Positions 5,139 to 62,982 of a stretch of 64,000 nt of DNA are shown piece by piece (the stretch's first letter is position 1; every line of letters begins with the position of its first letter). The notes under the pieces are model-generated. The model was not told where the DNA came from, ran no database searches, and saw only the letters and a list, made by a program, of their open reading frames with translations. The stretch comes from Limihaloglobus sulfuriphilus (lineage in GTDB: Bacteria; Planctomycetota; Phycisphaerae; Sedimentisphaerales; Sedimentisphaeraceae), in the NCBI RefSeq assembly GCF_001999965.1, contig NZ_CP019646.1:1364001-1428000 (forward strand). Direction: 5' to 3'. Made by a program: the position numbers and the translations under genes.

Positions 5139-5171
5139 ACTACTGAAGAGACCTGATGTAACAACATCGCC

Positions 5172-5491: not shown

Positions 5492-7486
5492 TTACTTTCG
5501 GCAGTCATAAAGCCTGAAACGATATATGCTGCCCGTTATTCCGTTATTCATAATGCCCCCGAGCACGGCCGTGCCGCTGTCACCGCCGAGATTCAGATTT
5601 TCAGCAGGCTCTGCCATAAAATAATACGGGCTGACAGGAATAGATGAAACAAATTTCCCATCTATATACAGGTGAGCCTTGGAGTTATATACCATCCCCG
5701 TTATTCGTAATCTCCGGCCCAGCGCCGGCTCATGCCCATCAGCAATATACAGCGAGGAGTTTGCCCTATATGCAAATGAGGGTATGCCGTTCTGGAAGAA
5801 GACAGCAAAACCGTTGTTCCAACCGCCCTTTGCCAGCACAATACCGTCACTCTTTGCCTTTACAATTACATCGACAGTAAACGGTCCGCCCTTGAGAGAT
5901 GGGAATTCGTCATTCTCTATGCTCATCACCGGCTCGCCGTCGCATACAAGAGGCTTTCCCTGCTGCTCAAAATCACGTTCAATTATGAGCCCGCTGCCGG
6001 GGCGGGCAGGTTTGTGCCGAACCGGCTTAATTTCCCATTTGTTCTGGTCGTAGCCGGTCTCTTTGATCAGGCGCCGCAGTTCTTTGTGAAGCTCTTTCTT
6101 TTTGGCCTGATATTCTTTGACCATTGCAAGGTTGTGCATTTCATGCGGATCATTTTTAAGATCGTACATTTCATCTATATCATCTAAATTCGGGTAATGT
6201 ATCAGCTTCCAGTCTTGCGTCCGGACTCCTACCATAGTCGGGATTCCCGGCACCAGATCAACAAAATATTCATACAAGAATGATTTACGCCATGAGCTGC
6301 TTTTATCTTCAAAAAGCGGTCTCCATGACTTTCCCTGCATATGCGAAGGAATCCCCGCCCCTGCCAGATCAAGAATCGTTGGTGCCAGATCTATATTGAG
6401 GGCAAGCTCTTCGATGGTTTTACCCTCTTCTACCATTTTCGGGTATCGCATCAGCAGCGGTATTCTTATCGATTCCTCATACATCATGCGTTTATCAAGG
6501 TGCCTGTGCTCGCCGAGAAAGAATCCGTTATCGCCGGCAAATATAATAACCGTATCGTCAAGCATCCCCTTATTTTCCAACGCCTTATACACTTTGCCGA
6601 CTCCCTCGTCCACCGCAGAAAGTGTCCGGTAATAATCCGTATAACTCCGGTTGTCGTAATGATTATTGAAATACGGATTCCACTGCTGCGGCATAGCCTT
6701 TACATCCTGGTATTCTCCCGGACGGGAAGATCTGAAAACACCCTTTATATGATTCTTCGCGAACCACTGGGGCTTTGTCTCGAAATTATCATCAAAGTTT
6801 ACCGGCTTATCAAGCTCGATACCCTCGTAAGTATCACCATGACGCGGGGCGGGCAAAAACGGCCCATGCACGGCCTTATGGGAGAGATAAAGGGCAAACG
6901 GCTGATTTTCATACTGTCTTTCTATGAAATCCACCGCTTTCTTACTTAATATATCTGTTGTGTAGCCTTGAGCTTGATACTCCTTACCGTTTTCAGTGTA
7001 TTGAGGGTCAAAATAAGTCCCCTGTCCGTCGAAACTTAGCCAATAGTCAAAGCCCGGGCGTTCATGGCCACCGGGGCCCTGGTGCCATTTTCCGATATAC
7101 CCTGTCTTGTAATCCTTGCCCTGGAGAATCTGAGCGAATGAGGGGCAATTCTGCCAGTCATAATCGTTGAACGTATTTTGGACAACCCCGTGTATATGCG
7201 AGTAAACGCCGGTTAAGAAACTCGCCCTGCTCGGACTGCATATAGAATGTGTTACGAATGCGTTTTTGAAATACGCCCCCTCTTTGCGCAGTTTATCCAT
7301 ATTTGGAGTCTTGAGCCAGGGATATTTGCCTAAGAAGCCCAGAGCGTCATACCGCTGGTCATCAACCAGGATAAAAACAAAGTTGGGCCTCTTTTGCGAA
7401 ACACGGCTCAAAGAAGTGCCGCGGCAGGCAGCCATAAATGCCAGAGACCCCAATAAACTTGTAGAAAGAAATCTGCGTCGGTCCAT
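5492..7486 (-). CDS. Cys-type sulfatase with C-terminal LamG-like domain
   Basis: A 664-aa secreted sulfatase (S1 family) predicted to remove sulfate esters from a polysaccharide. The N-terminus has a Tat-like DRRRFL motif, and Cys21 sits in a plausible lipobox (FMAAC), so it may be a lipoprotein. The alkaline-phosphatase-like core starts at ~residue 34 with the metal-binding pair VDD (42-43). CSPSR (Cys83) is the formylglycine motif. From ~residue 520 a LamG/concanavalin-like domain follows (DVIVKAKSDG...HLYIDGKFV), probably for carbohydrate binding. The ribosome-binding site is AAGGAAA. It lies 35 nt after the symporter gene and is the last gene of operon A. The maturing enzyme is not in the window. 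Confidence 0.92.
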   Translation of the reverse strand: MDRRRFLSTSLLGSLAFMAACRGTSLSRVSQKRPNFVFILVDDQRYDALGFLGKYPWLKTPNMDKLRKEGAYFKNAFVTHSICSPSRASFLTGVYSHIHGVVQNTFNDYDWQNCPSFAQILQGKDYKTGYIGKWHQGPGGHERPGFDYWLSFDGQGTYFDPQYTENGKEYQAQGYTTDILSKKAVDFIERQYENQPFALYLSHKAVHGPFLPAPRHGDTYEGIELDKPVNFDDNFETKPQWFAKNHIKGVFRSSRPGEYQDVKAMPQQWNPYFNNHYDNRSYTDYYRTLSAVDEGVGKVYKALENKGMLDDTVIIFAGDNGFFLGEHRHLDKRMMYEESIRIPLLMRYPKMVEEGKTIEELALNIDLAPTILDLAGAGIPSHMQGKSWRPLFEDKSSSWRKSFLYEYFVDLVPGIPTMVGVRTQDWKLIHYPNLDDIDEMYDLKNDPHEMHNLAMVKEYQAKKKELHKELRRLIKETGYDQNKWEIKPVRHKPARPGSGLIIERDFEQQGKPLVCDGEPVMSIENDEFPSLKGGPFTVDVIVKAKSDGIVLAKGGWNNGFAVFFQNGIPSFAYRANSSLYIADGHEPALGRRLRITGMVYNSKAHLYIDGKFVSSIPVSPYYFMAEPAENLNLGGDSGTAVLGGIMNNGITGSIYRFRLYDCRK

Positions 7487-10089: not shown

Positions 10090-12021
10090 TCAAACGCTTT
10101 TAACCCAAACGGGCGTTGACCATGCGCGCTGGCCGTTTGCCTGAACAGCCCGCAGATAATAGAAGTTATCGTCCTTGTCAAGCTCATCTGTAAAGGAAAC
10201 ATTGACGATCCCGTTATCAGCCTTGTCAGACCTGCATATCTGATTGTTTTTGATAAGGAATACTTCAATCCCATCATCTGCGCCGACAACCCTGTATTTG
10301 ATTTCACAGGAACCGACGGCTTCTACCTCGCTGCCCATCATGTCGCCGTTTATGGAAAAATCAATGTACAGACGATCAAATTCCGCGGCATAGACTCGAT
10401 AGTTCCACCATGCATCCCATATAGCTTTCTTTGTAAGCTCCGGCGCAACAAACGCCGCCAGCCCGCCCTTATACATTAGCCAGCATGAACGACCGGGTTT
10501 AGAGACGTGTGTATCTGATGAACCTATGACACCAAAGCGGCAGCCCTTTGCAAGCCCTGCCTGCATTGTCTTTTCGGGGTCTGTAGTATGCAGAGGATTT
10601 GGGTTGCCGTCGTACTCGGATGTACCGTGATTGGATACAATCTCGGCAAATCTGGCGTAAGCCGGATCCCACTCGCCCCATGGATATGTCTTTTCGCCGC
10701 GGTCAAACGCGAAATGGTGCGGCCCGCCGATTACCTTATACCCATTGTCGATATATTGTTCATGTGCCAGCTTATTGCACTGGGCGTACTTGTTCATGTA
10801 ATAATCTGTATGAGGCGCATCATCATCAAGGAAATACAGGTTCACATGGTCGAAATTCGTTCCCGCTTCCTCTCCGAGGAACACAATAAACCTGCCCGGC
10901 TCGTTGAATTCTTTTACCGCCTTCTGCATATGCGGCCAGTCATAATGCCAGTGGTCGGTTAGAGCGCAAACATCGAGATTTGCCTCATCGCGGCCAAAGC
11001 TGTAGTATTCCCAGGCATCCTTGCCGCAGCCGTCAGAGACCATGGTATGGCCGTGCATATCACCGTAGAAAATTCTGTTTTCCGGCATTTTGTCAAAAAC
11101 CATGATCGGCTCGCTGCGGCCCTTGAGGCCCTGCCCTGTCAGAGCTAATCTTTGAGGACCGGCGTGGGGCACACTGATCTTGACCCTTGCCAGACCGGAG
11201 ACAATCTTAACACCCTCTAACAGCAGCTCACCCTGTTCAGTTTTGATATTTACAGTCCCGCTGAAAGATGTTGCAGTATTGTAATATTTATCCTCGGCCT
11301 TTACCATAAGCTCAAAAGGCCTGCCCGCCTGCTGTGTCATCTGGGCAGACGCGTAGAGATGGTCAGGTTTGGAAGCCTTGACATCAAGTTTAGGATATTC
11401 GCCTATACCGTTAAACACTCCGTCGCCGTCATGGTCAACAGCGATAAAGAACTCATGATCTTTATCGGCGGCGATCGGAGGAACTGCGGGGTGTTCCCGG
11501 GTGCCGATGGTAAGCATTATCTTCTGCCCGGGCTTTAACGGTGTATCCTTAACCTTCGCCTGGAGGCACTGATGATATGTAAGAGGCGTGGAGCCTGTCC
11601 AATCATTTGCGGGCGGGCCGCCGGGTGCTCGGTTCATGGATTCCTGAGGAGCCCAGCCGTACCACTTGCAATCGAAATTGGCCCTGTCATCGCCGAGTAT
11701 TCCGATAAATTTCGGGCCCTTGGGGTTTTCTGCCTGAAAACTTGACCAGAAACCGAAATCTGAATTCCAGATAGCGGCATGATGCAAACCAAGCCAGATA
11801 CCTCCGCCGGCCGGAATTCCATCCTTGCCGACTGTAAACTCTATTACCACCTGGGTATTTTCGCCGGCATGAAGGATTGAGGGCTTAACGATTCTGGCGC
11901 TGCCCTGGCCCTTGCCGTCAAAGCTCAGAGCCTCATAGGGAAAAACCATTCCGACACCGGCTGCCGCGAGTGAGTGTTTTATGAAATTACGGCGGGATAT
12001 TGAGTTTGATTTATTTTTCAT
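10090..12021 (-). CDS. DUF3604 protein, PHP-like metal site, Tat-exported
   Basis: A 643-aa protein with a Tat signal (ISRRNFIKHSLAAAG, residues 8-22). Residues ~40-300 form beta-sandwich-type domains. From ~315 the DUF3604 domain begins: FYGDMHGHT (318-326) and LTDHWHYD (354-361) are the His/Asp clusters that resemble the PHP phosphoesterase/amidohydrolase metal site. Members are common in sulfatase-rich loci of planctomycetes and marine proteobacteria, but I know of no firm reaction for them. It starts 1 nt after the stop of the 413-aa gene, so the two are coupled. It is the last gene of operon B. Confidence 0.85.
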   Translation of the reverse strand: MKNKSNSISRRNFIKHSLAAAGVGMVFPYEALSFDGKGQGSARIVKPSILHAGENTQVVIEFTVGKDGIPAGGGIWLGLHHAAIWNSDFGFWSSFQAENPKGPKFIGILGDDRANFDCKWYGWAPQESMNRAPGGPPANDWTGSTPLTYHQCLQAKVKDTPLKPGQKIMLTIGTREHPAVPPIAADKDHEFFIAVDHDGDGVFNGIGEYPKLDVKASKPDHLYASAQMTQQAGRPFELMVKAEDKYYNTATSFSGTVNIKTEQGELLLEGVKIVSGLARVKISVPHAGPQRLALTGQGLKGRSEPIMVFDKMPENRIFYGDMHGHTMVSDGCGKDAWEYYSFGRDEANLDVCALTDHWHYDWPHMQKAVKEFNEPGRFIVFLGEEAGTNFDHVNLYFLDDDAPHTDYYMNKYAQCNKLAHEQYIDNGYKVIGGPHHFAFDRGEKTYPWGEWDPAYARFAEIVSNHGTSEYDGNPNPLHTTDPEKTMQAGLAKGCRFGVIGSSDTHVSKPGRSCWLMYKGGLAAFVAPELTKKAIWDAWWNYRVYAAEFDRLYIDFSINGDMMGSEVEAVGSCEIKYRVVGADDGIEVFLIKNNQICRSDKADNGIVNVSFTDELDKDDNFYYLRAVQANGQRAWSTPVWVKSV

Positions 12022-36930: not shown

Positions 36931-37005
36931 GGCCCCATCGTCTAGTCAGGTCTAGGACACCGGGTTTTCATCCCGACAACAGGGGTTCGAATCCCCTTGG
37001 GGTCA
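36931..37005 (+). tRNA. tRNA-Glu (TTC)
   Basis: A 75-nt cloverleaf: acceptor GGCCCCA/TGGGGTC, anticodon TTC (36967-36969) in loop TTTTCAT, T arm AGGGG-TTCGAAT-CCCCT. The outermost anticodon-stem pair is a C-A mismatch. CCA is not encoded. It marks the edge of the accessory region that follows. Confidence 0.95.
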
Positions 37006-37013
37006 TTTTGAAA

Positions 37014-37046: not shown

Positions 37047-37542
37047 ATGTCTATTTTTGGAATGTGCTAAGGAATGTGCTAAAAAATGTAGGGAGAAAAT
37101 CGCCTAAAATGAGCACCAAGAAGAGGTTGAAAAAAACTATAAAAACTCTTCATTTTCCCTCTTTTTTGCTTACCCTATTTTACCCATTTAAACTTGCAGC
37201 GTCTTATATCTAGGGCTATAGTTACCTAAGAGTATTTGCAATTTAATATAATTATTCAATGTTTTCTAATGAGATTGAAGACAAGCCCATATAGCAAGCA
37301 GCGACTTCGATTGTAAACTCTTTAAAAATAGTATTTTATAGATATTTAATTACGTATTGCTTCTTTATAACAGCACCAGAGGGGTTTTTGGTTTTTGAAA
37401 ATGAGCCAAAAAGCCATACAAAGCCACATCTCGGAGATGATTTTCACATTTTTTTCACATTAAAGTAGATGAAAAGTGGACAGAAAATAAGCTATGGGCA
37501 AATATGTCAATTTTGGGGGATATGAGATTGCTGAAATCCAAA
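37047..37542. other. AT-rich intergenic region between tRNA-Glu and the Rhs array
   Basis: About 500 bp with no supported gene. It begins with a tandem 12-bp repeat (GGAATGTGCTAA twice, ~37058-37081). Repeats directly behind a tRNA often mark old integration sites, but I found no second copy of the tRNA end in the window. Confidence 0.5.
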
Positions 37543-49456: not shown

Positions 49457-52400
49457 TCACCACCATCTACCATATATATCAATAGGCTCATCTCTGTTAT
49501 CTTCCCACTGGATGACTACGGGATATTCAGCGTTTAACAAACCATCAACTAAAACATTCCAAGTGCCCTCGACAACTGCACCTAATGCATTGCCTGATTT
49601 TTTATACACTTCTTTGTAGTTGTTAGCGTCAATCTCATCGTGCCATTGCCATTTCATATTGACATTGGTCAGTTTACAATGAGAGCCTGAGCAACAATAA
49701 TCAAAACTACCTTTTGCGGTGATTTCATGGGAAGTACTTAACCACCAAAATCCGTCAAAAGGTTTGATTTTTGAGACTTTCCAATTTTCCCCAACTAATC
49801 CGGTCAATTTCGCTGTCCCACTCATTTTGACAATCTTAGTGCGATAAACGTCATCCATACTACCAGATAATTGAGTTATCAATTCATCTAATTCGTCATT
49901 GATATGAGCAGTTACAGGGTCGTTGAACCAATTCCATGTGAAAGTTGCCGCTCGTGCCGCTAAAATTCCCATGATTTTTGTACCTAATGATGTTAGCCCC
50001 CAATCATCTCTCTTGTTAATCGGGTCGTGATTGGCGAAAACCTGCAAGCCTGCACCATCAGTAAGTTGGCGGATTGGAGAGAACGCATTGTTCCAATTAC
50101 CATCAGGATTGATGCCATGAGGGTCTTCTGTTACGAAGCTTCTTTCTACAGGGGAATAATATCTGTTCTTAAGGTAGTAATTTCCTGTTTCGTAGTCGAA
50201 ATAATAACCATTCCAGAGGATTGAGAGACCGTTCAGGTCAACGCCCTGGGCTACTGAAGCATTACCCCAGGCATCGTAGATTATTTCATCTATTCCGCCT
50301 TCATCGTTGGTTTTGGCTATCACGGAACCTTTATAGTCGGTGAAGAAATATGAACGCTGGGAATAGAAAACCTCGTCTGCAATCACAGGAACCCACTCTA
50401 CAAGGTCGTCACCGTCTATTTCATCATCATCGTTGGTATCCCAATCTGTAAGTTCTTCTGAAGTGCAGGTGGGAGAGCACAGCCACGCATCAGCGAAGAC
50501 AACGAACCACTCATAGAGGGTAGTATAGGAAGCAGGAGGCATCTGCATATAGACTACCTCGCCCGAGGCTCCGTAAACATAGTCACGAGACCAGCTTATA
50601 CTTCCTGTCCCAATCTGTTCATACTCTGATATCATATTGCCCATCTTATCATAGACGAACCAGGTTGTCAACGAGCCGACGGTTTTCTTTATCCGCCTGC
50701 CGAGCATATCGTATGCGTAGCCTGCAACATCGCCGGAGGAATCATCAACGTCAACCACCCTGTTTTCAGCGTCAACGCCGTAGAAAAGCCCGTCAGAGGC
50801 GGCATTGGTCGGGTTGCCGAGATAATCGCTGGTATAGGAAGAACTTGCCTCGGCGGTGAGTTTGCCAAGGTTATCGTATGAATACGCCGCACCGTCGCGG
50901 CTTGCAAGGCGGCTCTGGGGGCTCTCTGAAGTATAGCTGTAGTCGGCGGATGCGACAACCGTGCTGTTCAAGGTATAATCCTCATCGGTGATACGCCCAA
51001 CGCCGTCAAAAGAGACGCTGTATTCAATGCCGTTGCCGTAGGTCTTCGCCGCGATACGTGAGCCGATATAATCATAGCTTATAATATCCATCCCGTTATA
51101 GGCTACATCGTCTATGCTGCCGTATCCACTGCGGTTATATTCAACCGTCCTCTCGTTTGGATAGGTAACCCAGGCCAGATTGCCGCGGCAGTCATAGCCG
51201 TAATCAATGGTAACACCATCGAAATCGCCGCAGTTCTCAACAGATTGCTTTAAGTTGCCCAGCCCGTCATAGACATAATAATAAAAGATAGAATCAGATG
51301 AGCCGTCGAACTTGGTTACTTTGTCCTTTAACCCAAGGGCGTTATATACAATCTGGTCGAACCAGCCGGTGCTTCCCATCTCCGTCCAGTCAACCGTCTG
51401 CCCGTAAGCCTTGCCAACAACACGCCCCATCTCATCACGCTTGTAATGGGTCCACTTGCGGTCTTCGGGGCTTGTCTGATTGACATCAGGGTCTTCAACA
51501 CGCAGGATGGTATTTCCACGCATATCGTAGCCGTATTCAAGGGTATTACTGCCTGGATAGTTGATTTTGGTAATTTTATCGAGATAATTATAATCGTAGG
51601 AAGTTGTCCGGCTGTTTTGAGTATCATCATTTTCAGTGGCTGTAATGCTTGCCTGCCTGCCAAAACGGTCATAACCATAGGTCGTTGTGCGTTTTAAGGT
51701 TGAAGAGAGGGGGTTTTCGATTTTGTCTGCCAACTCGCCGGTATAGTAGTAAGTGAAGTATGTAGTCAGCCCGTCGCCGTCCTGATAGCTTGTTCGCCTG
51801 CCCAGGACATCATAAGAGTAGATTTGTGTATAATCATAGTTTGAGCCGTCATAAGTCTCTACTGTTTCAAGTTGTCCCTGATTTGTATAGCCGTAGCGGC
51901 TTGCAGCGACTATAGTATTTGAGCTGTCAGTCGGGTCGATATCTGTTATTGTCTGATACTCACGCTGACCGAGGGTGTTGTATTCATAATCTATTGTTTT
52001 ATATGGGGCAACAGCGTATGTAGCTCCGAAGGAGCTGACGTATTCCTCTTCATAACCGGATTCTGTCCGCCAAACCCTGCCGATTTCCTCATATACATTT
52101 TGGGTATATGCAGATTTAGTCGTTGTCATTCCCAGAGCGGTAAACTGATAAGTAAGCTTTTTGGTAAATTCCAGTCTGCCGTAAACATCATAACAGTAAT
52201 CCGTAACCTTATCGGTTCCTATGACCACATCATCAAACTCTAATGGAGCTGTATCGCTGTGGCCGGACGGGTCAATAAATACGGCAACCCTCTCCTTTTG
52301 ACCTCTGTTGTTGTAACTGGTCAGAACCCGTGAAACAGCAATGGGATTTTCTCCCGGAGCATTTTCAAGATTTAAAAGTTCATTTATACGCAGAGTGGGC

Positions 52401-55400
52401 TTAACCTGCCAGAGAGTTTGGGCAACAGGCTGATTGAGGCTGTTATACAGGGTCTCTGTATAGTTGTTGTAGGTGTGACTGTAAACCGTAGAGTCACCAT
52501 CAAGGGTATATTCCATATCATAATCAGCGTCATATGCCTTCCAGGTTCTGCCTGCGTTGTCATAAGAATAGCCTGCGGTTGTAAGCCAGACGGCAGATAG
52601 AGCATTTCCGCTGCCGTCACGGGTATAATCGCTCAGAACCTCTGTGCTCGTCAACTGACCACCGGTATAATTTCGTTTCTGGATATAAATTCCCTCGACA
52701 TACAGAGCATAATCAAGCATTTCATCGGTATCAGCAAAAGGAAGTTCATTACTGTTGTCAGTTAAAGCATCACCGGCATACTCAAACCTGGCAGAATACT
52801 CAAGCTCTCCGGTAAGATTATACCAGTTCTGCTCGACACGGTCACCTGCCTGATAAACAGCATAACCATTAGTATCATATATACTGCTGTTGCTGTCTGC
52901 TTTTGTCAGGGTCTCAACAAGTCTGCCTTGATAATCGTAGCTAAACAGTTTAATCCTGTCATATTCATCAGGGTCCCGCAGAGTGTCTGAGACGACATCA
53001 TTAGGGTCATCGAGAAGAATCTCTTCATATTTTTCTCCGCGAGAATTATATTTGTACCGGACATCCTTGACAATAGTTTCTGTAGTTGAACCAGCAGAAC
53101 CTTCCACATCTACATAAATCTCACGTTCTACATCACCTGCATAGTTCTTCTCGTATTCGACATAATCGCAAACGCCATCAACGTCACCCACATAATGACG
53201 ATATTTATTGTTGTAGTCATCATAGCCGTAGCTTGCTGTAGCAACTCGCTCAGAGCCTATGCCTTTCCATGTCCTGAAAACCCTGCCATTGACATCATAT
53301 TCAGTTTCCGAGCAGGTCAGAACTACATCCGCTGAACTGGAATTCGTGTATCCTTCCTCAGTCCTTATTACCTGACCGCGTCCATCGCGTATCTGCTTTA
53401 CCCAATGGCCGTCTGGATAGATTGTCATTTCAAGCTCACCTTGATTGTTATAGACATAGTCGGTCTGAATATTGTCACCAGTGTAATAATACTTATAAAC
53501 GCCGGGAGTAGTTTCATACACAAGCACAGGGCCTGATATGTCTTTTTTCTTACGCCCATATAGGTCATACTCATATTGCGTTACACGCCATCCATCCAAC
53601 AGATACTCATCATTTTCCACACTTGTCGCCACAGCATTACTAGCAAGAAAATCATAAAATGTGCCACAATGGCTGTAATAGCTAAACGAACCATCCTGAA
53701 CAGCCTCTAAAATGAATTCAATCCGTCCAGCAGAATCATAATAGTATAGTTTCTGAATCAAGACATCAATGCCTGTATATACAGTCTCTATGTCAGCGTT
53801 AGAGGCTCCATCAAAACCATTAACATCTGAAGGGTCAGCGAACACGAATTCGCTAATAACCTTACCGCCGTCGTCATATTCTTTACCTCTGGAAACGCCT
53901 CTCTTATCGATAGTATATATAACATCACCAAGAGCTGTAGACTTTGATACGGTAGTATACAGCACATTATCCAATGAATCGGTAACAGTAATTCCTGTTG
54001 ATTGATTATAGCCGTCATACCCGTAGGAGGTTATAACTTCATCAGTTCCATTATTACTTACGGTTTCTGTTTCGATACGTCCATCAGGATAGTAGGTATA
54101 ATCATGCCGAAGCAGTATATCTTGATTATTCAGTTGAGCTACAGCCTTATATTCATAATCGAAATAATCGTAAATCACCTGTTCATAACTAACAATAAGC
54201 CGGTCTTCGTCTGAACCACTTGTGCCATACTCATGATATGAGCCAAAGTACTCGTATTCTGAACTATCCCTTAGATTGTACCAGCTAAAAATCTCCTCTG
54301 CCTGTTGGTCGCTGTTGTAGTAGGTCTTCCCAATACAAACTTCTATTTCTGTTCCATCAGATGCAACTTCAATTATTTTTTCAATATCATATCCATCTGA
54401 AGAGCCGTGAAGTTCAGTTCTGCGATAGGTTCCGGTTTCATTGAGAGCCCGAGTGTTAAATTCCGGAGATTTTTCAATGGTTGCTACTAGTACATCATTA
54501 TTATACTCATATTCATATATTGTTGGATAAAACTCTACTGTAACTGTATTTGCTCCATCCTGGTATTCATAGTATCCATTGGCGATAATTGTATCAGTTA
54601 AATCATCTGGTATCTGTAATATGTCTACGTTTTCAGGGTCTGTAAATTGAATTACAGTTTTCTTTGTATGGTCACTTTTCTCAATCTCCAGGGTCAGTCT
54701 GTAATGATTAATGTCTGTGGTATAGTCATAGATAGTCCTAACCTTATTCCCGTTTGCATCTATGCTATAGTCAATATGCTTAACCGGAATGGATACTCCT
54801 GAACCAAGCCATGTATCTGTCAGCCTGTTTTCATCATCATAAGCGTGAGTATAGATTACATTATCTGCTAAATCTTTCTCCTGATATACGTACCCTGAAT
54901 CCGTATAGAGATACAGTCGGCGGTCGCCGGAATTGCAACTTGAGCAACTATTCCCTGAGCCATCACCTCCAAGAACACCTGACACTTCGAAGGTTACAGG
55001 GTCATAATCAATTATATACTCCCTCTCAAGAGCCCCGACGCTGTCTTTATACGATTTTAACTTACCCTCTAAATTGCCACTCGTATGATATTCAAAAGAG
55101 CGTGTAACTCCTGCACTGGTTATAGAAGTCAACTGCTCTCCAGGACAATATGCATCAGAAATTATATTGCCTGCAAGGTCAACCTCCCATTCAAATGATG
55201 CTGTTTTTCTTCCAGAGTCAGTCGAAATACTATACACTAAGATATTATCGCCTGGCATCTGTAGTTGAATTAACTCTTTGGTTGAGTTATCTGTAAGATA
55301 AGCATTAAAGGTAGCCAAATCATTACCAAAAGGATTAAAATCATCCAGTTTCTCTTCAATGAATTCTGCTCCATAGATATATGCCTCATCTATATCTTGA

Positions 55401-57199
55401 TAATAAAGCTCTGTAGCATCATTGGCATGTATCGTTATCTTCGGTGGTATTGAGTCAATTCCAAGGTCTTTGCGATTGCAGCATTCATAACCGTTGGATT
55501 TGAGTGCATATTTAAGGTTATAAGACGAAGATGCGTGTACCTTTTGCCTTATTGGTTCGTTGTCTTGTGACCTGATAGTTTCATTCCACCAAAGTTTAAA
55601 ATTAATATCTAAATTATCATCTCCCTGGTAGGCCTGCACTTTTAGCTCAACAGTGATTTTGCCCTCATTAGAGTTGTAGTCAGCATCGATAATTGTATTA
55701 TCTTCTATGTCATTATCTAAAACTTCACCATCAAACCATACTTTTGCCACATCCATGGCTGGAACCTTCACATTCTCAAGCTCAATACGAAGTGCGTCTC
55801 CATAGGAAGGTAGATGTTGAACTGGGAGATAAAAATCCATTTTCAAGATAAAAGTTTCACCATTTTTATCACCACAAGCGCCTGTATAGATAACTTTGCC
55901 GTCAAACATCTTATCGCCTTCTTTTACCAGAAATATGCCTCCATTTTGTTCTTCTGAAATTGCGTGAGTTTCAATAGCGTCAACGTCTATAAAATCTGCA
56001 TAATCAGTTTCTACGACTACAAGTGCATCTTCCAAATACCAGCCCGTCTCTACATTATCAGCTCCCAACCAGCCATCAAAAGTAGGGTTTAAGCTAAATG
56101 TTTCATCCTCAAGCCCACAACTTAGATTTACACTGTTATAAAGATGGTATAGTTGGTTAGCTGATACGGGATTGTTATGCCCTAAGGCTTCATACTGATT
56201 CAACATTAAATATACCTTAGCGGTGTCGCTGGACGGATACATATTGAGGTCACATGAGTATGTAGTATCGCTAAGGGACTTATACGCATAACCTCCGGCA
56301 AATTGGTCTTCGTTAATAAGGCAAAAGGGAAAGCATGTGCAACACTGAACACAATGACCTATCCAGCTTAAATCGCTTGTGGTAGTTAAGTATCTGGTGG
56401 ATATGCCGGTCGAATACGACAGATTGCTACTGCAACTGACAGTGTCAAAGTCATCAAAAAAAACACTGTCTGCTTCTGTCTGTATCTCAGACATAGTTTT
56501 TGGTTCGGGCTCACCGGTGTAATTGCCGTGCAAAGAACAATTTAACACTGTCCTGTTGTTATCGGGATTCCAATTGAAATGACCACTTCCCCTTTGCTGT
56601 GCGTAACAAAGTACGCTCGTACGCGAAGTTTTATTCAGCAATTGAATGTCAGAATAGATTGCGTTTAAAACATTCTGGTGATTCGTTTCGGTTATTTCAT
56701 CTGAATCTATAATTCCTATGGTATTGATTGCTAATTCATTACTGAGCTCAACCTCGTAATAATTACATAGGCAATCTTCATCTGAAGGGTCTGAAACATA
56801 TAAGCTCAATCCTTTATCATGACCATTGTCTGTTGTCTCATGTTTTATAGTTAATACGCTGCTCCCAAGGTTCAAATCATAGAGTGAATCAAATAAATAT
56901 TTGGTTACAGCGACAATTTGAGATAAGTCCTTTTGCCTGTCTGTGTCATAGTATCCATCTTCAGGGAATGATGGTGTCTTAATTTCTCTATATGCACAAC
57001 AAAGGTCGTCCCAAGGTTGGCACTTATCTTCTGAATAATAAATAAAATTAAGATAACGACGAACTTTCTGATAATCCCTCATTACTTCTTCAACACTGGC
57101 AATGCCATATGCGTTTCCTGCAAACACTCCTGTCAAAACCATCACAGCAACAAATACAACAAGTCTGGGAACCAAATAGTTTCGGCTGATTAAACTCAT
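49457..57199 (-). CDS. Full-length secreted Rhs/YD-repeat protein with variable C-terminal tip
   Basis: 2580 aa. The N-terminal signal is MSLISRNYLVPRLVVFVAVM...GNAYG (to ~residue 32). A Cys-rich region (~residues 60-350, DDLCCAY, CVQCCTCFPFC) and non-repeat domains lead to YD repeats over ~750-2200 (DYDPVTFEV, GYDNLGKL, YDMRGNTILRV, YDKMGNMISEY). The core closes with NYYLKNRYYSPVERSF, GLQVFANHDPINKRDDWGL, the equivalent of the Rhs core-end motif. The 178-aa tip (2403-2580) holds GSFDYCCSGSHC and MKWQWHDEID. A dockerin-like loop, DTNDDDEIDGDD, lies inside the repeated end segment. By analogy with Rhs toxins, the core forms a shell that carries the tip, which should be the effector. Confidence 0.88.
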   Translation of the reverse strand: MSLISRNYLVPRLVVFVAVMVLTGVFAGNAYGIASVEEVMRDYQKVRRYLNFIYYSEDKCQPWDDLCCAYREIKTPSFPEDGYYDTDRQKDLSQIVAVTKYLFDSLYDLNLGSSVLTIKHETTDNGHDKGLSLYVSDPSDEDCLCNYYEVELSNELAINTIGIIDSDEITETNHQNVLNAIYSDIQLLNKTSRTSVLCYAQQRGSGHFNWNPDNNRTVLNCSLHGNYTGEPEPKTMSEIQTEADSVFFDDFDTVSCSSNLSYSTGISTRYLTTTSDLSWIGHCVQCCTCFPFCLINEDQFAGGYAYKSLSDTTYSCDLNMYPSSDTAKVYLMLNQYEALGHNNPVSANQLYHLYNSVNLSCGLEDETFSLNPTFDGWLGADNVETGWYLEDALVVVETDYADFIDVDAIETHAISEEQNGGIFLVKEGDKMFDGKVIYTGACGDKNGETFILKMDFYLPVQHLPSYGDALRIELENVKVPAMDVAKVWFDGEVLDNDIEDNTIIDADYNSNEGKITVELKVQAYQGDDNLDINFKLWWNETIRSQDNEPIRQKVHASSSYNLKYALKSNGYECCNRKDLGIDSIPPKITIHANDATELYYQDIDEAYIYGAEFIEEKLDDFNPFGNDLATFNAYLTDNSTKELIQLQMPGDNILVYSISTDSGRKTASFEWEVDLAGNIISDAYCPGEQLTSITSAGVTRSFEYHTSGNLEGKLKSYKDSVGALEREYIIDYDPVTFEVSGVLGGDGSGNSCSSCNSGDRRLYLYTDSGYVYQEKDLADNVIYTHAYDDENRLTDTWLGSGVSIPVKHIDYSIDANGNKVRTIYDYTTDINHYRLTLEIEKSDHTKKTVIQFTDPENVDILQIPDDLTDTIIANGYYEYQDGANTVTVEFYPTIYEYEYNNDVLVATIEKSPEFNTRALNETGTYRRTELHGSSDGYDIEKIIEVASDGTEIEVCIGKTYYNSDQQAEEIFSWYNLRDSSEYEYFGSYHEYGTSGSDEDRLIVSYEQVIYDYFDYEYKAVAQLNNQDILLRHDYTYYPDGRIETETVSNNGTDEVITSYGYDGYNQSTGITVTDSLDNVLYTTVSKSTALGDVIYTIDKRGVSRGKEYDDGGKVISEFVFADPSDVNGFDGASNADIETVYTGIDVLIQKLYYYDSAGRIEFILEAVQDGSFSYYSHCGTFYDFLASNAVATSVENDEYLLDGWRVTQYEYDLYGRKKKDISGPVLVYETTPGVYKYYYTGDNIQTDYVYNNQGELEMTIYPDGHWVKQIRDGRGQVIRTEEGYTNSSSADVVLTCSETEYDVNGRVFRTWKGIGSERVATASYGYDDYNNKYRHYVGDVDGVCDYVEYEKNYAGDVEREIYVDVEGSAGSTTETIVKDVRYKYNSRGEKYEEILLDDPNDVVSDTLRDPDEYDRIKLFSYDYQGRLVETLTKADSNSSIYDTNGYAVYQAGDRVEQNWYNLTGELEYSARFEYAGDALTDNSNELPFADTDEMLDYALYVEGIYIQKRNYTGGQLTSTEVLSDYTRDGSGNALSAVWLTTAGYSYDNAGRTWKAYDADYDMEYTLDGDSTVYSHTYNNYTETLYNSLNQPVAQTLWQVKPTLRINELLNLENAPGENPIAVSRVLTSYNNRGQKERVAVFIDPSGHSDTAPLEFDDVVIGTDKVTDYCYDVYGRLEFTKKLTYQFTALGMTTTKSAYTQNVYEEIGRVWRTESGYEEEYVSSFGATYAVAPYKTIDYEYNTLGQREYQTITDIDPTDSSNTIVAASRYGYTNQGQLETVETYDGSNYDYTQIYSYDVLGRRTSYQDGDGLTTYFTYYYTGELADKIENPLSSTLKRTTTYGYDRFGRQASITATENDDTQNSRTTSYDYNYLDKITKINYPGSNTLEYGYDMRGNTILRVEDPDVNQTSPEDRKWTHYKRDEMGRVVGKAYGQTVDWTEMGSTGWFDQIVYNALGLKDKVTKFDGSSDSIFYYYVYDGLGNLKQSVENCGDFDGVTIDYGYDCRGNLAWVTYPNERTVEYNRSGYGSIDDVAYNGMDIISYDYIGSRIAAKTYGNGIEYSVSFDGVGRITDEDYTLNSTVVASADYSYTSESPQSRLASRDGAAYSYDNLGKLTAEASSSYTSDYLGNPTNAASDGLFYGVDAENRVVDVDDSSGDVAGYAYDMLGRRIKKTVGSLTTWFVYDKMGNMISEYEQIGTGSISWSRDYVYGASGEVVYMQMPPASYTTLYEWFVVFADAWLCSPTCTSEELTDWDTNDDDEIDGDDLVEWVPVIADEVFYSQRSYFFTDYKGSVIAKTNDEGGIDEIIYDAWGNASVAQGVDLNGLSILWNGYYFDYETGNYYLKNRYYSPVERSFVTEDPHGINPDGNWNNAFSPIRQLTDGAGLQVFANHDPINKRDDWGLTSLGTKIMGILAARAATFTWNWFNDPVTAHINDELDELITQLSGSMDDVYRTKIVKMSGTAKLTGLVGENWKVSKIKPFDGFWWLSTSHEITAKGSFDYCCSGSHCKLTNVNMKWQWHDEIDANNYKEVYKKSGNALGAVVEGTWNVLVDGLLNAEYPVVIQWEDNRDEPIDIYGRWW

Positions 57200-57300: not shown

Positions 57301-58072
57301 CAGAAAAATTATTTTTTTGTATAATTTTCTTCTTTCCTAATTCTCGTTGTTTTGAACAGAATCAAGATTTTAACAGATTATCCTCAAATTATTACTAATC
57401 AACACCAAAAACTATAAAATCAGCCTAAATAAAACCCGAATAACATACCGCACCACCTCCCCCCAGCTCAGCCAGGGCATCATCCATATTTTTATTATAA
57501 TTACAGCCATAACAGTCCCTGCCCAGATACCCAGATTTTCCGATAATCCTGGTTTTATTTTTACTCTCATATCTTTCAATTTGACGTTTTTACCTATTAA
57601 TTTTCAACCCAAAAATTACCCTGTTTTAAAATTCGCTTTTCAAGGAACCCTATTTTCAAGTAGGAGTCCCATAAAACTTTTACCCCCATGGGTAGGGGTG
57701 ACGCTTAGTTTTTCTATTTATGTAAAAACATATTTAATGTAGCTGGAACTTTTAGAGCAGTAATTTGTTCCAGAGAATAAAAATTATTCTTATTATTTTT
57801 TACTGGGATTCTTAATCTTTTTTTTTCATTTCGGTCGATGAATAAAAATTATTTTTAAAATTTTTCAGCAGTATCAGGTTCTGAATTCTTCAGTTTTTCA
57901 GCCTTTTTGCTCTGGTGACCCTAAAAAAGAGGATTGATATTCTATATAATGCAATAATGCCATTAAAATTATCAGCCTTTATCAGGATTGCCACTTGATT
58001 TAAATACTTCCTCGCGTTACACCAGGCTGCTTTTTAAAACAAAATCTCCAGCTAATTTAAAATGGTTTTTAA
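57301..58072. other. Long AT-rich gap between divergent Rhs and RuvB-like operons
   Basis: No supported gene in ~770 bp. It is rich in runs of T and A. A short GC-rich island near 57690-57705 (CCCCCATGGGTAGGGG) could form a small hairpin. A TATAAT at 58073-58078 may be the -10 box of the plus-strand operon that starts at 58109. Confidence 0.5.
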
Positions 58073-58108: not shown

Positions 58109-59113
58109 ATGGCAGGAACAGACGTAAATCAAGTAGCAATATCAAGCCTTAATCACATAAAAGGTCAGGATAAAGTTATAGATGTATTGAGGGTCAACAT
58201 TGATGCTTACTTTAATAGCCGCCAGAATGGCACGTGTGCTTCGTTCGGCCCAGCCCTACTTGTCGGTCCATCAGGCACTGGAAAGAGCCTTGTTGCAAAG
58301 GCTGTGCATTCTGAGCTTGCAAATCTTGACTTAATAGAGGCAAACTCAGAAATGCTTACTGTTGGTGAGATAACTGCTATGCTTATCCAGGCAACCGATG
58401 AGACTACTATCTTCTTAGATGAGGCTCAATCCTTGGATACTAAGGTTCAGCACATACTTCTTACTGCTTTGAGCGAAAAGAAGCTCTTTACCCCAAAGAA
58501 AAACAATAAGGGCGGCTATGCTATTCCCCTTGCTAACTTTACCCTAATTTTAGCATCTACTCACGAGTATCTTCTTCAAGATGCTTTGAGAAATAGAATG
58601 AGGATATACGCCCGTTTTGATTACTATTCAAATGATGATTTGATTGGAATAGTTAAGCAAAGAGCAGACTCTCTTGGATGGGATTACGAGTCTGAAGATG
58701 TCTTGCGAATAATAGCAAAGCGGTCTAAACAGACTCCAAGAATAGCTTTAAATAGGAATTTACAGATGGCCTGGAATGTATGCTCATCTGAAAATCGAGC
58801 TTTAATAACCTTATCTGATACCTTAAGAGCATTTCAATTGCTTGATATCGATGAATTGGGACTTGATGCTTTAGAACGTTCTTACCTCCAAGAACTTTCA
58901 AAAAACGAATCTGTCAGGCTTAATGTTGTTGCATCAAAGATTGGGCTTCCCAGACAGACTGTAGCAAACGTCATTGAACCTTATTTACTAAGGCAGGAAC
59001 TTATTGAAAAGATTGGCTCTGAAAGGGTTATTACAGATAAAGGCAAAGCCCATATTGAGCATTTTTTTAGAAGTAACTGTCTAATTGATGGAGATTTGAT
59101 GACCAATGAATGA
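58109..59113 (+). CDS. RuvB-like AAA+ ATPase
   Basis: 334 aa, nearly the length of RuvB, with its plan: Walker A GPSGTGKSLVA (~residue 54), Walker B IFLDEAQSL (~residue 96), sensor 1 LILASTHE, arginine-finger region LRNRMRIYARFDYYSNDDL (RuvB: LRDRFG), sensor 2 TPRIAL, and a C-terminal winged helix (IEPYLLRQELIEKIGSERVIT). It is diverged enough not to be the housekeeping copy. RuvB drives branch migration of Holliday junctions. Placed with a tyrosine recombinase, it may process recombination intermediates. GGAG precedes the ATG. It overlaps the next gene by 8 nt. Confidence 0.82.
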   Translation: MAGTDVNQVAISSLNHIKGQDKVIDVLRVNIDAYFNSRQNGTCASFGPALLVGPSGTGKSLVAKAVHSELANLDLIEANSEMLTVGEITAMLIQATDETTIFLDEAQSLDTKVQHILLTALSEKKLFTPKKNNKGGYAIPLANFTLILASTHEYLLQDALRNRMRIYARFDYYSNDDLIGIVKQRADSLGWDYESEDVLRIIAKRSKQTPRIALNRNLQMAWNVCSSENRALITLSDTLRAFQLLDIDELGLDALERSYLQELSKNESVRLNVVASKIGLPRQTVANVIEPYLLRQELIEKIGSERVITDKGKAHIEHFFRSNCLIDGDLMTNE

Positions 59114-59552
59114 TAATAAGATGTCAAATTTCAAACCTGTAATTTCTGTCTCAGATGCCTGTAAACTTGTAGGTCTAAGCAGGGCAAGATTCTATCAGTT
59201 GTTAGAAGAGGGAATATTTCCTCAGCCTCTCTATCATATCAAAACTAAGCGTCCTTATTATGACAAGAATTTACAGATTAAGCTTCTTGAAATCAGAGAA
59301 GAAGGCATTGGCAACAACGGCGATATCATTATTTTTTATTCCCCGCGAAAAAAGAAAAATCGCCAAAATAAAAAATCCAAAAAGGAGCATTCTGTTCTGG
59401 ATGATTACGCTGAAACGCTAAGTTCTATGGGAATTTTTTGCAACTCAAAAGAGCTCTCTGCTGCCCTTAAAAAACTCTTCCCTGATGGAGTTGGTGGAGT
59501 TGAAGAAGGGATTATAATTCGGGAGCTTTTCAGATATTTTAAGTCAAAATGA
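59106..59552 (+). CDS. Small helix-turn-helix protein (excisionase/MerR-like N-terminus)
   Basis: 148 aa. Residues ~10-55 read VISVSDACKLVGLSRARFYQLLEEGIFP, followed by YHIKTKRPYYDKN, a MerR/AlpA-like winged helix with a wing. A basic linker (~75-95, RKKKNRQNKKSKKEH) and a helical C-terminal part (DDYAETLSSMGIFCNSKELSAALKKLFP) follow. It overlaps the RuvB-like gene by 8 nt and is 87 nt before the recombinase gene. It could be a directionality factor or regulator of the recombinase; this is inferred from size and position. Confidence 0.72.
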   Translation: MNDNKMSNFKPVISVSDACKLVGLSRARFYQLLEEGIFPQPLYHIKTKRPYYDKNLQIKLLEIREEGIGNNGDIIIFYSPRKKKNRQNKKSKKEHSVLDDYAETLSSMGIFCNSKELSAALKKLFPDGVGGVEEGIIIRELFRYFKSK

Positions 59553-59639
59553 TGTCAATATGGAGTAATAAAGTTGTTAATTTTGTGAACAAATCAAGCA
59601 CAATTGATGTATTTATTTAGCTCATAAGGAGTCGATTTT

Positions 59640-60548
59640 ATGTCTAATTCTTGTCTAACTCTTCTCCCAATGCGGGATAATGTCACTTATCCCGCGTCAC
59701 AGAACAAATCTGCCATTCCCAAGCAGGCAGAGTCCGATGAGCAGCTCATTTCTCTATGGCTTCATGGCCGGAGCAGGCACACTCAAAGAGCTTATAATTC
59801 TGATATAACCAAGTTTTGTAAATCTGTTGATAAACCTTTTCAAAAGATTACCCTTGGAGACTTACAGAGCTTTGCAGATGAATTGATAGAAGGTGAACTC
59901 TCTGACTCTTCTGTCAAAAGAATTTTATCTTCAGTTAAGAGCTTATTTTCTTTTGGACATACGATAGGGTATCTTACTTTTGATGTTGGAGCACCCTTAA
60001 AAATTCCTTCAACAAGAGAAACTATTGCTGAACGTATCTTAAGCCAGGAAGAAGTTCAAAAGATTATATCCTCAGTTTCAAATACTCGAAACAGGCTTAT
60101 TATAAAGACTCTTTACTATACTGGAATTCGAGTTTCAGAGCTTGTATCACTCAAGTGGAAAGACCTTCAGCATCGGGAGCAAGGCGGCCAAATGACAATT
60201 TTGGGCAAAGGGGGAAAATCTAATGTATTGCTAATCCCCAAAGAATTATGGTTTGAGTTGATGCTATTGAGGGATACTGTATCTGGTGAAGGGCCTGTTT
60301 TTAGAAGCCGTAAAGGCGGGCATCTGAATCCAGGTCATGTAGAAAGAGTTCTCAAAAATATAGCAGTAAAAGCCATAGGTAAAAATGCAACTCCCCACTG
60401 GTATCGCCATAGCCACGCAAGCCATGCATTAGACAACGGATGTCCAATTCATCTTGTGCAGAAACAGCTCAATCATAGCTCTATTGCCACTACTGGCAGG
60501 TATTTACACGCCAGGCCTACAGAGAGCAGTTCTAAATATTTGAAGTAA
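59640..60548 (+). CDS. Tyrosine recombinase (XerC/D- or integrase-like)
   Basis: 302 aa. The N-terminal SAM-like DNA-binding domain (~33-115, HTQRAYNSDITKFCK) is followed by a catalytic domain with the full set of residues: Arg164 (TGIRVSE), Lys190 (LGKGGK), His253 and Arg256 (PHWYRHSHASH), His279 (LNHSS) and Tyr288 (TTGRYLH). AAGGAG lies ~10 nt before the ATG. It is the last gene of the three-gene unit. Its size and layout fit both Xer-type and mobile-element recombinases. No attachment-site pair was found. Confidence 0.92.
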   Translation: MSNSCLTLLPMRDNVTYPASQNKSAIPKQAESDEQLISLWLHGRSRHTQRAYNSDITKFCKSVDKPFQKITLGDLQSFADELIEGELSDSSVKRILSSVKSLFSFGHTIGYLTFDVGAPLKIPSTRETIAERILSQEEVQKIISSVSNTRNRLIIKTLYYTGIRVSELVSLKWKDLQHREQGGQMTILGKGGKSNVLLIPKELWFELMLLRDTVSGEGPVFRSRKGGHLNPGHVERVLKNIAVKAIGKNATPHWYRHSHASHALDNGCPIHLVQKQLNHSSIATTGRYLHARPTESSSKYLK

Positions 60549-60597: not shown

Positions 60598-61848
60598 TTA
60601 TAAACCACAATCTGGGTTATACCTATCTCCACACCAGAGCCAATTTTCTACGAACAACTCAAAATCATAAAAATTCACATAACAATCGTTGTTTATATCA
60701 GCCGGATTTATTTCTGAACAAGCAAAAATAACAAAAGGTTCATCACTATTGTCTGTTATAGTGGGATTATCAGACGAACTTACTCTAATAAGACATTGTT
60801 CTGATTCAATATTGGGAGTGGCCCATTCGTATATACCTGAATTAAGCGTTCCTGTAATAATACTTGTCCAAGATAAACCGTTGTCTAAAGAATAATCAAT
60901 ATCAACTGTAGGCACACTAATGTCTCCATCTAGTTGATATTCAACCATTACATGATTTTCTGTCAAATATCTTTCTCCACCATCTGGTGAAATTACTGTC
61001 AAGACTATATTAGGATTTTTAAGTAAAATGGAACCTTCACCTTCCCTGATAAACTGGCTACTAATCGGGTCTCCATTTAAAAGGAAACCTGTTATAACCC
61101 CATACGAATCTTGAATATAACCTAGAGGATAATTAAAATTTGTTCCAAAAATAGTGACTTCACTATTATGTCTAGCATATATTGTGCCATCTACCCAACC
61201 GCCTTTAATTTCTACAGAACTTGAATCTTCTATATAAAGATTGTTTCCCAAATTGCCCCCAGCCATTACAAGCCTAGAATTATTATTTAAAGTTGTATAA
61301 TTGTTGACATTTCCTCCTTCCATATATAGACTCCCTTGGTTGCTTAAATGCAAATATCGCCCTACGGTTCCACCATAAAAATAGACTTTGGAGTTGCCGG
61401 AAATCAGAAAATCTCTGTCTGTCCTGCCAATATGTCCATCATATACATTAAGTTCAGTATCATCATATGTGGATACTGTATCATAGATTGTTCCACCATA
61501 TATATTTCCTTGGCTATATCCATTTAAAACGAGATATCTTCGTATATAGCCTGATTTTATTTCTACATATGAATTCGCAAAAGCAAAAACATCTCTTCCA
61601 TAATCTCCTATCGAACCACCATTTAGAATCAAGTTACTTGAACCATATAGCCATAAGCTTTGAAATATATGTCCATTCGTCTGAACATCTATAGTAGTTG
61701 GCATCTGAGTGTCACTATCAAATACCCGAACCTCATCATCAATAAAGGTGGTTATATAATTATACTCTCCATTATCATACACAACTACCCCGTAATTCAA
61801 ATTGGAACAATAAATGATAAATAAGAATAACGTTGTTACTTTTGCCAT
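60598..61848 (-). CDS. Secreted repeat protein with C-terminal dockerin-like loop
   Basis: 416 aa with a signal peptide (MAKVTTLFLFIIYCSNLNYG). Residues ~40-260 are beta-helix-like repeats rich in Gly, Asn and Tyr (SSNLILNGGSIGDYGRDVFA, GQGNIYGGTIYDTVS-type words). A beta-sandwich-like domain follows (~275-370, SPDGGERYLTENHVMVEY). The end is a single dockerin-like loop, ADINNDCYVNFYDFELFVENW, plus a Cys-containing tail (CGDRYNPDCGL). It is convergent with the recombinase gene, 50 nt apart. Its codon use is much more AT-rich than that of the polysaccharide locus. Confidence 0.75.
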   Translation of the reverse strand: MAKVTTLFLFIIYCSNLNYGVVVYDNGEYNYITTFIDDEVRVFDSDTQMPTTIDVQTNGHIFQSLWLYGSSNLILNGGSIGDYGRDVFAFANSYVEIKSGYIRRYLVLNGYSQGNIYGGTIYDTVSTYDDTELNVYDGHIGRTDRDFLISGNSKVYFYGGTVGRYLHLSNQGSLYMEGGNVNNYTTLNNNSRLVMAGGNLGNNLYIEDSSSVEIKGGWVDGTIYARHNSEVTIFGTNFNYPLGYIQDSYGVITGFLLNGDPISSQFIREGEGSILLKNPNIVLTVISPDGGERYLTENHVMVEYQLDGDISVPTVDIDYSLDNGLSWTSIITGTLNSGIYEWATPNIESEQCLIRVSSSDNPTITDNSDEPFVIFACSEINPADINNDCYVNFYDFELFVENWLWCGDRYNPDCGL

Positions 61849-61919
61849 TTTGTCTCCTTTAAAATATTGAGAAAAAGGCCATACAGTATAGAACCATACA
61901 GCCTTGAATTATTAAATTG

Positions 61920-62552
61920 TTAATTTCGTTTTTTCAAGATGCCCATAAATCCTATTGTAAGGAGTGAAATAGTTGTTGGCTCAGGAACTGCCGTCACAAT
62001 AATATTATCCAAACCCCAACTTTCATCGCTTACTGATTGCATACTACTACCCTGGAAGTTAATTACAACATCATCCTCAAGATGGTTGAAAGTATAAACT
62101 AAATGATAAGTTGAGTCACCAGCCTTGTATCCCAAACTGCGGACAGCAGAAGCTCCCGTATGGGCAGGGTGTGAACTCGGATAGTTGTCAGGGTATGATT
62201 GCCTTGGTCCTTGGCCTGAATTATTTAAATTGGTAAAAGTGGTATTAAGCAACACTGGGCCGTCTTGAATTGCTAATGTCCAAATGTCACCATTATTTCC
62301 ATCCATCGTTTGAAGAATATACAAGTCAAACTCAAGTTTTATATCTGTATGACTTGGAATACTACCCAATGAAAGAGTGACAAGGGTGTTTGACCAATCC
62401 CCAAGAAATCTTTGTCCGGAAGGAGTCTGCTTAATAGTAGTTGCAGACCATTCACTACCTACGGACGACTCAAAATCATTGGAATAGATAGTAGTAGCAC
62501 CAACAAAGTTCCCGGCGAGACAACACACTAATAAACATAGCATCTTTCTCAT
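61920..62552 (-). CDS. PEP-CTERM protein
   Basis: 210 aa. It has a signal peptide (MRKMLCLLVCCLAGNFVGA), a beta-sandwich-like domain resembling carbohydrate-binding/LamG folds (IYSNDFESSVGSEWSA...WGLDNIIV), and a PEP-CTERM tail: VPEPTT, a hydrophobic stretch and KKRN. AAAGGTAAG precedes the start. It lies 71 nt upstream of the 416-aa surface protein in the same direction and may be co-transcribed with it. Confidence 0.85.
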   Translation of the reverse strand: MRKMLCLLVCCLAGNFVGATTIYSNDFESSVGSEWSATTIKQTPSGQRFLGDWSNTLVTLSLGSIPSHTDIKLEFDLYILQTMDGNNGDIWTLAIQDGPVLLNTTFTNLNNSGQGPRQSYPDNYPSSHPAHTGASAVRSLGYKAGDSTYHLVYTFNHLEDDVVINFQGSSMQSVSDESWGLDNIIVTAVPEPTTISLLTIGFMGILKKRN

Positions 62553-62690
62553 TTTACTTACCTTTCAACTAAATAATCATGAAACCCCATATATAGCAAC
62601 CATATCCTATATATTTGAGTTTCTAATCTCTTTCGCATTTTTAACATAAGCATTTAACACAATTACATCTTCTATCATTACATATTAATC

Positions 62691-62723
62691 TGACACGTAA
62701 CTCGTGTCAAGTGGTTTTGACAC
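62691..62723 (+). promoter_or_regulatory. Palindromic operator between the PEP-CTERM and XRE genes
   Basis: A perfect inverted repeat TGACACG-5 nt-CGTGTCA (62691-62709) and a further half-site TTGACAC (62717-62723), directly before the regulator start. Likely autoregulation by the XRE protein, perhaps also of the divergent gene. Confidence 0.6.
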
Positions 62724-62736
62724 TAAAATTGGGTCA

Positions 62737-62982
62737 ATGGCTACAAAATCTCAACATTCTATGAAATATAGGCCCTTACCTCTCTTCCTAAAAAAGATGA
62801 GAGAAGAGGCAGGTTTGACTCAAAGGCAGATAGGAAAGCTCTTAAATAAGCCACAATCCTATATTTATAACTGCGAAGTTGCCAATCGAAGAGTTGATAT
62901 CACTGAATTTATCCTTTGGGCAGAGGCTTGTGGGGTAAATCCCAAAACAGCCTTTAATAACTTGTTAAAAGAGCTTAAATAG
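62737..62982 (+). CDS. XRE-family helix-turn-helix regulator
   Basis: 81 aa from the ATG at 62737. The frame extends to a GTG at 62704, but that codon lies inside the operator palindrome, and an ATG at 62761 is also possible; none has a clear ribosome-binding site. The helix-turn-helix covers most of the protein (LKKMREEAGLTQRQIGKLLNKPQSYIYNCEVANRRVD). Small stand-alone XRE proteins usually repress their own gene and neighbours. An ISL3-type element begins only ~11 nt after its stop codon. Confidence 0.82.
   Translation: MATKSQHSMKYRPLPLFLKKMREEAGLTQRQIGKLLNKPQSYIYNCEVANRRVDITEFILWAEACGVNPKTAFNNLLKELK

Follow-up and report, generated by a model that had tools for sequence, protein, structure and literature searches.

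Motors of the RuvB family drive branch migration and are familiar from homologous recombination. Among site-specific recombination systems, dif is an 11-6-11 site, and xerS adjoins its site (PMC5357621). In the irs/TnpI system of Tn4430, a core inverted repeat and direct-repeat accessory sites lie upstream of the tyrosine recombinase gene, and in the resolution of Tn3-family elements TnpR and TnpI alternate (PMC7157771). We analyzed a window of 64,000 nucleotides (the whole stretch of DNA; positions refer to it unless given as genome positions) from the complete genome of Limihaloglobus sulfuriphilus (3.87 Mb, one contig), in which a RuvB-like ATPase gene (RuvBL), a gene for an HTH protein and a tyrosine recombinase gene (INT) form a trio. 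We found no description of such a module in the open-access papers searched. Our tentative proposal, which we hold with somewhat less than even confidence and on comparative sequence evidence, is that the trio is an element-borne, self-contained resolution module, in which the HTH protein would build the complex and RuvBL would drive or gate the recombinase.

A RuvB paralogue, an HTH protein and a tyrosine recombinase

The three open reading frames lie on the forward strand. RuvBL (58109–59113, 334 aa) encodes a RuvB-family AAA+ ATPase with a winged-helix C terminus (Pfam RuvB_N, AAA_lid_4, RuvB_C), which retains Walker A (GPSGTGKS, K59), Walker B (D104, E105) and R163. Overlapping it by 8 bp, the second gene (59106–59552) encodes an HTH protein of 148 aa, with a winged HTH (about residues 9–76), a linker and a C-terminal three-helix bundle (92–147). 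INT (59640–60548, 302 aa) is an Xer-like tyrosine recombinase with Phage_int_SAM_1 and Phage_integrase domains and a complete catalytic set: R164, K190, H253 and R256 were placed by alignment, H279 and Y288 by counting along the sequence. A preliminary description had recognized here a RuvB-like ATPase, an overlapping HTH gene and a complete tyrosine recombinase in one operon, without RuvA or RuvC and beside Rhs genes. The reading frames, domains and residues agree with it; the operon contains neither ruvA nor ruvC, the genome has its housekeeping ruvB at another position, and an Rhs-type gene occupies 49457–57199, with Rhs C-terminal pieces and insertion sequences further upstream.

Compared with RuvB, the Holliday-junction branch-migration motor, RuvBL is homologous over its full length (AAA+, lid and winged helix; profile E-value of 4e-76 to 1in4) and shares its AAA+ fold, RuvB_C winged helix and intact Walker motifs. 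Unlike RuvB, it has no RuvA partner gene, it scores far under the RuvB equivalog cut-offs (175 bits against 282 for NF000868, 155.6 against 299 for TIGR00635), and its segment before FTL, which matches the RuvA-contact hairpin, is altered. The housekeeping ruvB (genome position 941851, with ruvA directly upstream) encodes a protein 32% identical to RuvBL. In a quick maximum-likelihood tree, with a careful tree search unfinished, this protein joins the planctomycete RuvBs, and RuvBL stands on a separate branch outside supported branches (99 and 97). The grouping with housekeeping RuvB that would have spoken against the preliminary interpretation does not appear in this tree, and judged from sequence RuvBL is distinct from the housekeeping protein. 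Three very diverged loci (L137–L139) fall nearer to RuvB in the same tree, which therefore does not establish one common origin for the RuvBL proteins as a whole.

The DNA-binding domain of the HTH protein is of the MerR/excisionase type; its structural matches include RdfS and the GIsul2 excisionase (Foldseek, E about 0.03–0.2), and Pfam gives a weak match to AlpA/HTH_17. The family has no housekeeping relative. We considered whether the C-terminal bundle might correspond to RuvA domain III and recruit RuvBL. Length and helix count are similar, yet the idea is unsupported: the profile comparison gave a score of 3.0, where shuffled sequences averaged 3.15, Foldseek returned nothing significant for the bundle, and its retention in L121/L122, where the HTH gene is accompanied by a recombinase but not by RuvBL, counts against a RuvBL-recruiting role. 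The alignment of HTH proteins was too diverged to serve as a scan query, and a scan of genome contigs with the single HTH protein gave no match.

Conservation of the trio and a predicted recombination site

RuvBL and HTH genes are adjacent in 50 nonredundant loci, nearly all from Planctomycetota, and a recombinase gene starts 14–449 bp after the HTH gene in 44 of them; two of the other six run into a contig end. The notion of a joint system could have failed had the three genes not been conserved together; the conserved gene order indicates instead that the trio is a unit conserved across Planctomycetota. Its occurrence is patchy: RuvBL proper is found in about ten of 148 genomes of the order, with up to three copies per genome, and the HTH family in 13 of 161 genomes of the order and 23 of 397 of the class, with strong matches in 8 of 392 genomes sampled across the phylum. 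The wider distribution was sampled by a pattern-based scan of genome contigs and by scans of viral contigs; the loci of the named-genome scan belong to Gemmataceae, Pirellulaceae, Planctomycetales and Phycisphaerae, together with three sets from MAGs not labelled as planctomycetes. Phage and plasmid records gave only RuvB-like matches at 26–32% identity (housekeeping or viral RuvB) and no trio. Across 38 loci the pairwise identities of RuvBL and the HTH protein correlate with r = 0.77, and those of the two with INT with 0.64 and 0.60, all uncorrected for shared ancestry.

The recombinase encoded after the HTH gene is most commonly an Xer-like tyrosine enzyme of ~300 aa and sometimes a serine recombinase. 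Five types were distinguished: type A, that of the window; type B, a second Xer-like enzyme about 27% identical to it; a phage-type tyrosine integrase; a large serine recombinase (L046); and a small serine resolvase (L074), which occupies the slot of the tyrosine enzyme and fits a role in resolution. Serine recombinases form no Holliday junction intermediate, and their sharing of this slot argues against a role of RuvBL limited to Holliday-junction branch migration.

Other genes recur in the vicinity. A second, shorter RuvB-like ATPase of about 250 aa is encoded near the trio in L041 (6434–7186), L042 (11483–12250), L044 (16130–16870), L050 (6108–6851), L051 (7407–8177) and L125 (10266–11144); it is convergent with INT in clade A and lies directly upstream of RuvBL in L125. 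A gene for a Cas4-like PD-(D/E)XK nuclease is recurrent near clade-A trios (L042, 1698–2414; L044, 8006–8722; L124, 1952–2818). The trio of L042 is also flanked by a 1179-bp inverted pair (99% identity; 5163–6341 and 10191–11369), probably an insertion sequence, one copy of which cuts the 3′ end of INT.

The start of INT is overlapped by two direct repeats of 11 bp each, TGTCTAATTCT and TGTCTAACTCT (59641–59662, forward strand). They are phased TGTC iterons, probably the binding sites of an accessory protein, for which the HTH protein is the natural candidate. Within INT codons 11–20 follows a 28-bp dif-type inverted repeat, ATGCGGGATAA-TGTCAC-TTATCCCGCGT (59670–59697; 11-6-11, 10 of 11 positions paired), which is probably the core recombination site of INT. 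Alignment of the HTH–INT intervals places a core, GATAA-N6-TTATC, at the HTH stop codon, followed by TGTC words every 11 bp. With thresholds set after the motif was seen, and with related loci not independent, this core is found with at most one mismatch in 23 of 43 loci (0.245 in shuffles), the 28-bp inverted repeat in 26 of 43 when 11-bp arms were sought as far as the first INT codons (mean of 0.4 in shuffles, 1.0 at random places in the same loci), and TGTY words 11 bp apart in 35 pairs over all loci (0.42 in shuffles). The excess over shuffles is large and spans distant clades. The other 17 loci, including G010 (L039), L075 and L133, fall below the criterion for the 28-bp site. No second copy of this site was seen; resolution expects one site per copy, and the absence is no proof. 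An overlap of site and iterons with the start of INT would explain why the INT N terminus (MSNS...DNV) is alike between types otherwise 27% identical. In clade A the site lies inside the INT reading frame, so that only recombination between two identical copies leaves the gene whole.

Host islands, cargo and alternative roles

The preliminary description had suggested a search for att junctions and a link to an integrative element, and both were found. A tRNA-Glu gene (36931–37005, forward strand) is the integration target of an island whose attL is a 26-bp direct repeat, AGGGGTTCGAATCCCCTTGGGGTCAT (36981–37006, forward strand), equal to the 3′ end of the tRNA gene. Its exact copy, attR, lies beyond the window at genome 1447632–1447657, where there is no tRNA. 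The exact repeat at both ends delimits an island of 46.65 kb (genome 1400981–1447657), and GC content drops after tRNA-Glu from 0.48 to 0.36–0.43. Besides the trio, the island carries Rhs genes, several insertion sequences and a type I restriction system that insertion sequences have disrupted. The trio is separated from attL by about 21 kb and from attR by about 23 kb, and its recombinase is not at an att site; a separate tyrosine integrase of 486 aa is encoded 1.9 kb from attR, and the queries used detected no further tyrosine recombinase in the island. Tandem AATGTGCTAA repeats occur at both inner island ends (37062–37090 in the window, and just inside attR) and are possible arm-type sites of this integrase.

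The same layout recurs, whole or in part, in five related islands. Genome G025 has one island of 45.7 kb in tRNA-Gly (30-bp repeat) and another of 40.8 kb in tRNA-Ser (25-bp repeat). In both, an integrase belonging to the same broad family is found at about 100 bp from an att site, and the trio lies 11–27 kb from the ends. One end was seen in three further cases: in G010 and G079, a different integrase stands beside tRNA-Phe and tRNA-Leu, respectively, at the edge of the low-GC stretch bearing the trio, and in G051 a homologue of the window island's integrase lies 9 kb from the trio, where GC content changes in a sharp step. An empty site for L075 was sought in the congeneric G520 and was not found. 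In clade A and in at least one clade B island, the gene layout thus places the trio in the interior, as a second recombination module. In G025, positions 3872354–3938037 (L151–L156) comprise two islands in tandem within a single tRNA-Ser; there are three att copies, and type I restriction genes occur in the second island as well.

An interior position bears on the possibility that the trio helps integration and excision, with RuvBL as a remodelling ATPase and the HTH protein as a directionality factor assisting whichever integrase is present, and INT as a former integrator now found beside a second one. The resemblance of the HTH domain to excisionases and MerR proteins agrees with this, as do two loci (L043, L047) with a phage-type integrase and an HTH_17 gene at some distance. 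Moreover, the HTH gene is followed by a large serine recombinase overlapping tRNA-Pro in L046 and by a recombinase overlapping tRNA-Ser in L121/L122; there the recombinase is probably the element's integrase, and the pair may therefore also serve integration or excision. Against such a role, clades A and B have an interior INT and a different integrase beside the tRNA. The dif-type site within the INT frame in clade A, together with an HTH–INT distance of at most 200 bp in 43 loci, also means that this is not an occupied integration junction. We consider a helper function unlikely, if still worth entertaining, for the trio as a whole.

Upstream of RuvBL stands a palindrome, AATAAAAATTATTCTTATT (57776–57794), conserved at this place in clade A and the best match in the whole genome, with a second, weaker copy 65 bp further on (57841–57859); by its position and conservation it is probably an operator. 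The paired palindromes (57776–57859) are AT-rich, kept in clade A and essentially unique in the genome. They could alternatively belong to a replication module, in which RuvBL would act as an initiator or helicase-loading ATPase at this AT-rich region and the recombinase would resolve the products. The RuvB AAA+ plus winged helix is like that of Orc1/Cdc6, the second RuvB-like ATPase accompanies clade A and L050/L051, and L041 and L050 have a primase-like gene close to the trio, L043 a weak primase match nearby. An initiator would, however, not be expected to adjoin five kinds of recombinase so strictly, and many clade B and D loci have no replication gene among the open reading frames read nearby; we regard this explanation as distinctly improbable.

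The genes next to the trio are variable. The Rhs-type protein of 2580 aa (49457–57199, reverse strand) is transcribed away from RuvBL. Directly after INT come two genes for secreted or surface proteins (60598–62552, reverse strand), followed by an XRE-type HTH gene (62704–62982, forward strand) that also occurs near the trio in G010 and G079. The interval from INT to the XRE gene (60598–62982 in the window; L039, L044) holds a different set of surface-protein genes in each genome and none in L041 and L042. Defence genes among the cargo comprise type I restriction-modification (window island, L072, L077), Gabija (L075), DRT1a (L073) and a TIR protein (L070). In the wider phylum sample (L070–L077), such anti-phage systems accompany five of nine trio loci, a figure without a matched control. 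The trio as a defence system in its own right was discarded, matches to the mad1/mad8 models being too weak and generic.

This cargo raises the question of an integron-like platform, in which INT would capture variable genes after its stop codon or shuffle Rhs cassettes. In five pairs of related loci, DNA similarity indeed breaks off no more than 3 bp from the INT stop codon and gives way to different cargo. Nevertheless, the putative core lies at the HTH–INT boundary or within the 5′ end of INT, not at its 3′ end, and where present is never occupied by cargo. No cassettes were found at the site, the recombinase lies within 450 bp of the HTH gene in all 44 loci, and the interval leaves room for even a small extra open reading frame in only one of the 44 (372 bp), which runs counter to cassette capture there. 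INT scores 97.3 bits against a cut-off of 265 for the integron integrase (TIGR02249), and no att-like repeat was found at its end. A role in Rhs cassette exchange, proposed in the preliminary description, fares no better: the window and L041 each have an Rhs gene adjoining the trio and pointing away from RuvBL. Such a neighbour is thus present in two of five clade-A loci, in none of the other clades examined and in 2 of about 45 loci overall, so that co-occurrence with Rhs arrays is weak; Rhs genes are found in relatives without the trio as well. Most simply, they are ordinary island cargo, and a cassette platform of either kind seems to us very improbable. That the site lies inside the INT frame in clade A and is never occupied by cargo is easier to reconcile with resolution between identical copies than with the uptake of foreign DNA.

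Two further ideas about the 3′ end of INT were dropped. Direct repeats there that might act as att sites were none of them convincing. A minimal transposable unit formed by the trio and bounded by the INT stop codon would agree with the end of similarity, yet DNA similarity often breaks off where genes end, and terminal repeats were not found.

A possible resolution module compared with known systems

The 28-bp 11-6-11 site and the layout of a core with direct repeats are shared with dif and irs, both of them resolution systems, and this underlies our reading of the trio. As a resolution module, INT would recombine two 28-bp sites in a dimeric excised or replicating element and so keep the element monomeric. 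The HTH protein would bind the iterons and shape the synapse or control its timing, and RuvBL, as a RuvB-type dsDNA motor, would load near the site and then activate or gate INT, as FtsK does for XerCD. The conserved module and its likely target site suggest that a motor of the RuvB type has been co-opted by a site-specific recombinase. More speculatively, and in our view rather unlikely in this full form, a RuvB-family motor and a DNA-binding loader would together be a dedicated dsDNA translocase controlling the element's own recombinase, a self-coded counterpart of FtsK-XerCD-dif that works with serine recombinases too. What matters beyond the mechanism is the link, through gene order in about 50 loci, of a RuvB paralogue to site-specific recombinases that differ in their chemistry. 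The association with both serine and tyrosine enzymes suggests that RuvBL does something different from branch migration, which makes a new role for a classic motor testable. A recognizable module and its target site are also defined for Planctomycetota, a phylum whose mobile elements appear little described in the open-access papers searched.

The GInt islands (ginABCD; PMC5385486) resemble the trio in having an operon of recombinase and small DNA-binding protein genes with variable cargo. They differ in that they have three integrases but lack an ATPase, and in that their operon, located at the end of the island, carries out the integration, whereas that of the trio has one recombinase, after the ATPase and HTH genes.

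The TnpI/irs system of Tn4430 and Tn5401 is like the trio in its core inverted repeat and direct repeats upstream of or next to the recombinase gene, and in that the resolvase, serine or tyrosine, differs between relatives. In contrast, the recombinase of the trio is preceded by the RuvB-like ATPase and HTH genes, its host is a tRNA-integrated island, and no Tn3 transposase was seen among the genes read.

With XerCD/dif-FtsK, XerS/difSL and XerA/dif (PMC5357621), the trio shares a recombinase of about 300 aa with full catalytic residues and a 28-bp site with 11-bp arms, a 6-bp center and ATAA/TTAT inner ends, although INT stays below the Xer cut-offs (168.8 bits against 220 for XerA, 150 against 335 for XerC and 143 against 330 for XerD). 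As in XerS/difSL, the recombinase gene adjoins its site, and as in XerCD/dif-FtsK, a dsDNA translocase would exert control. Unlike these systems, the trio is element-borne, with many copies of the module in different islands, and it combines a motor of the RuvB family, in place of FtsK, with an extra HTH protein and iterons.
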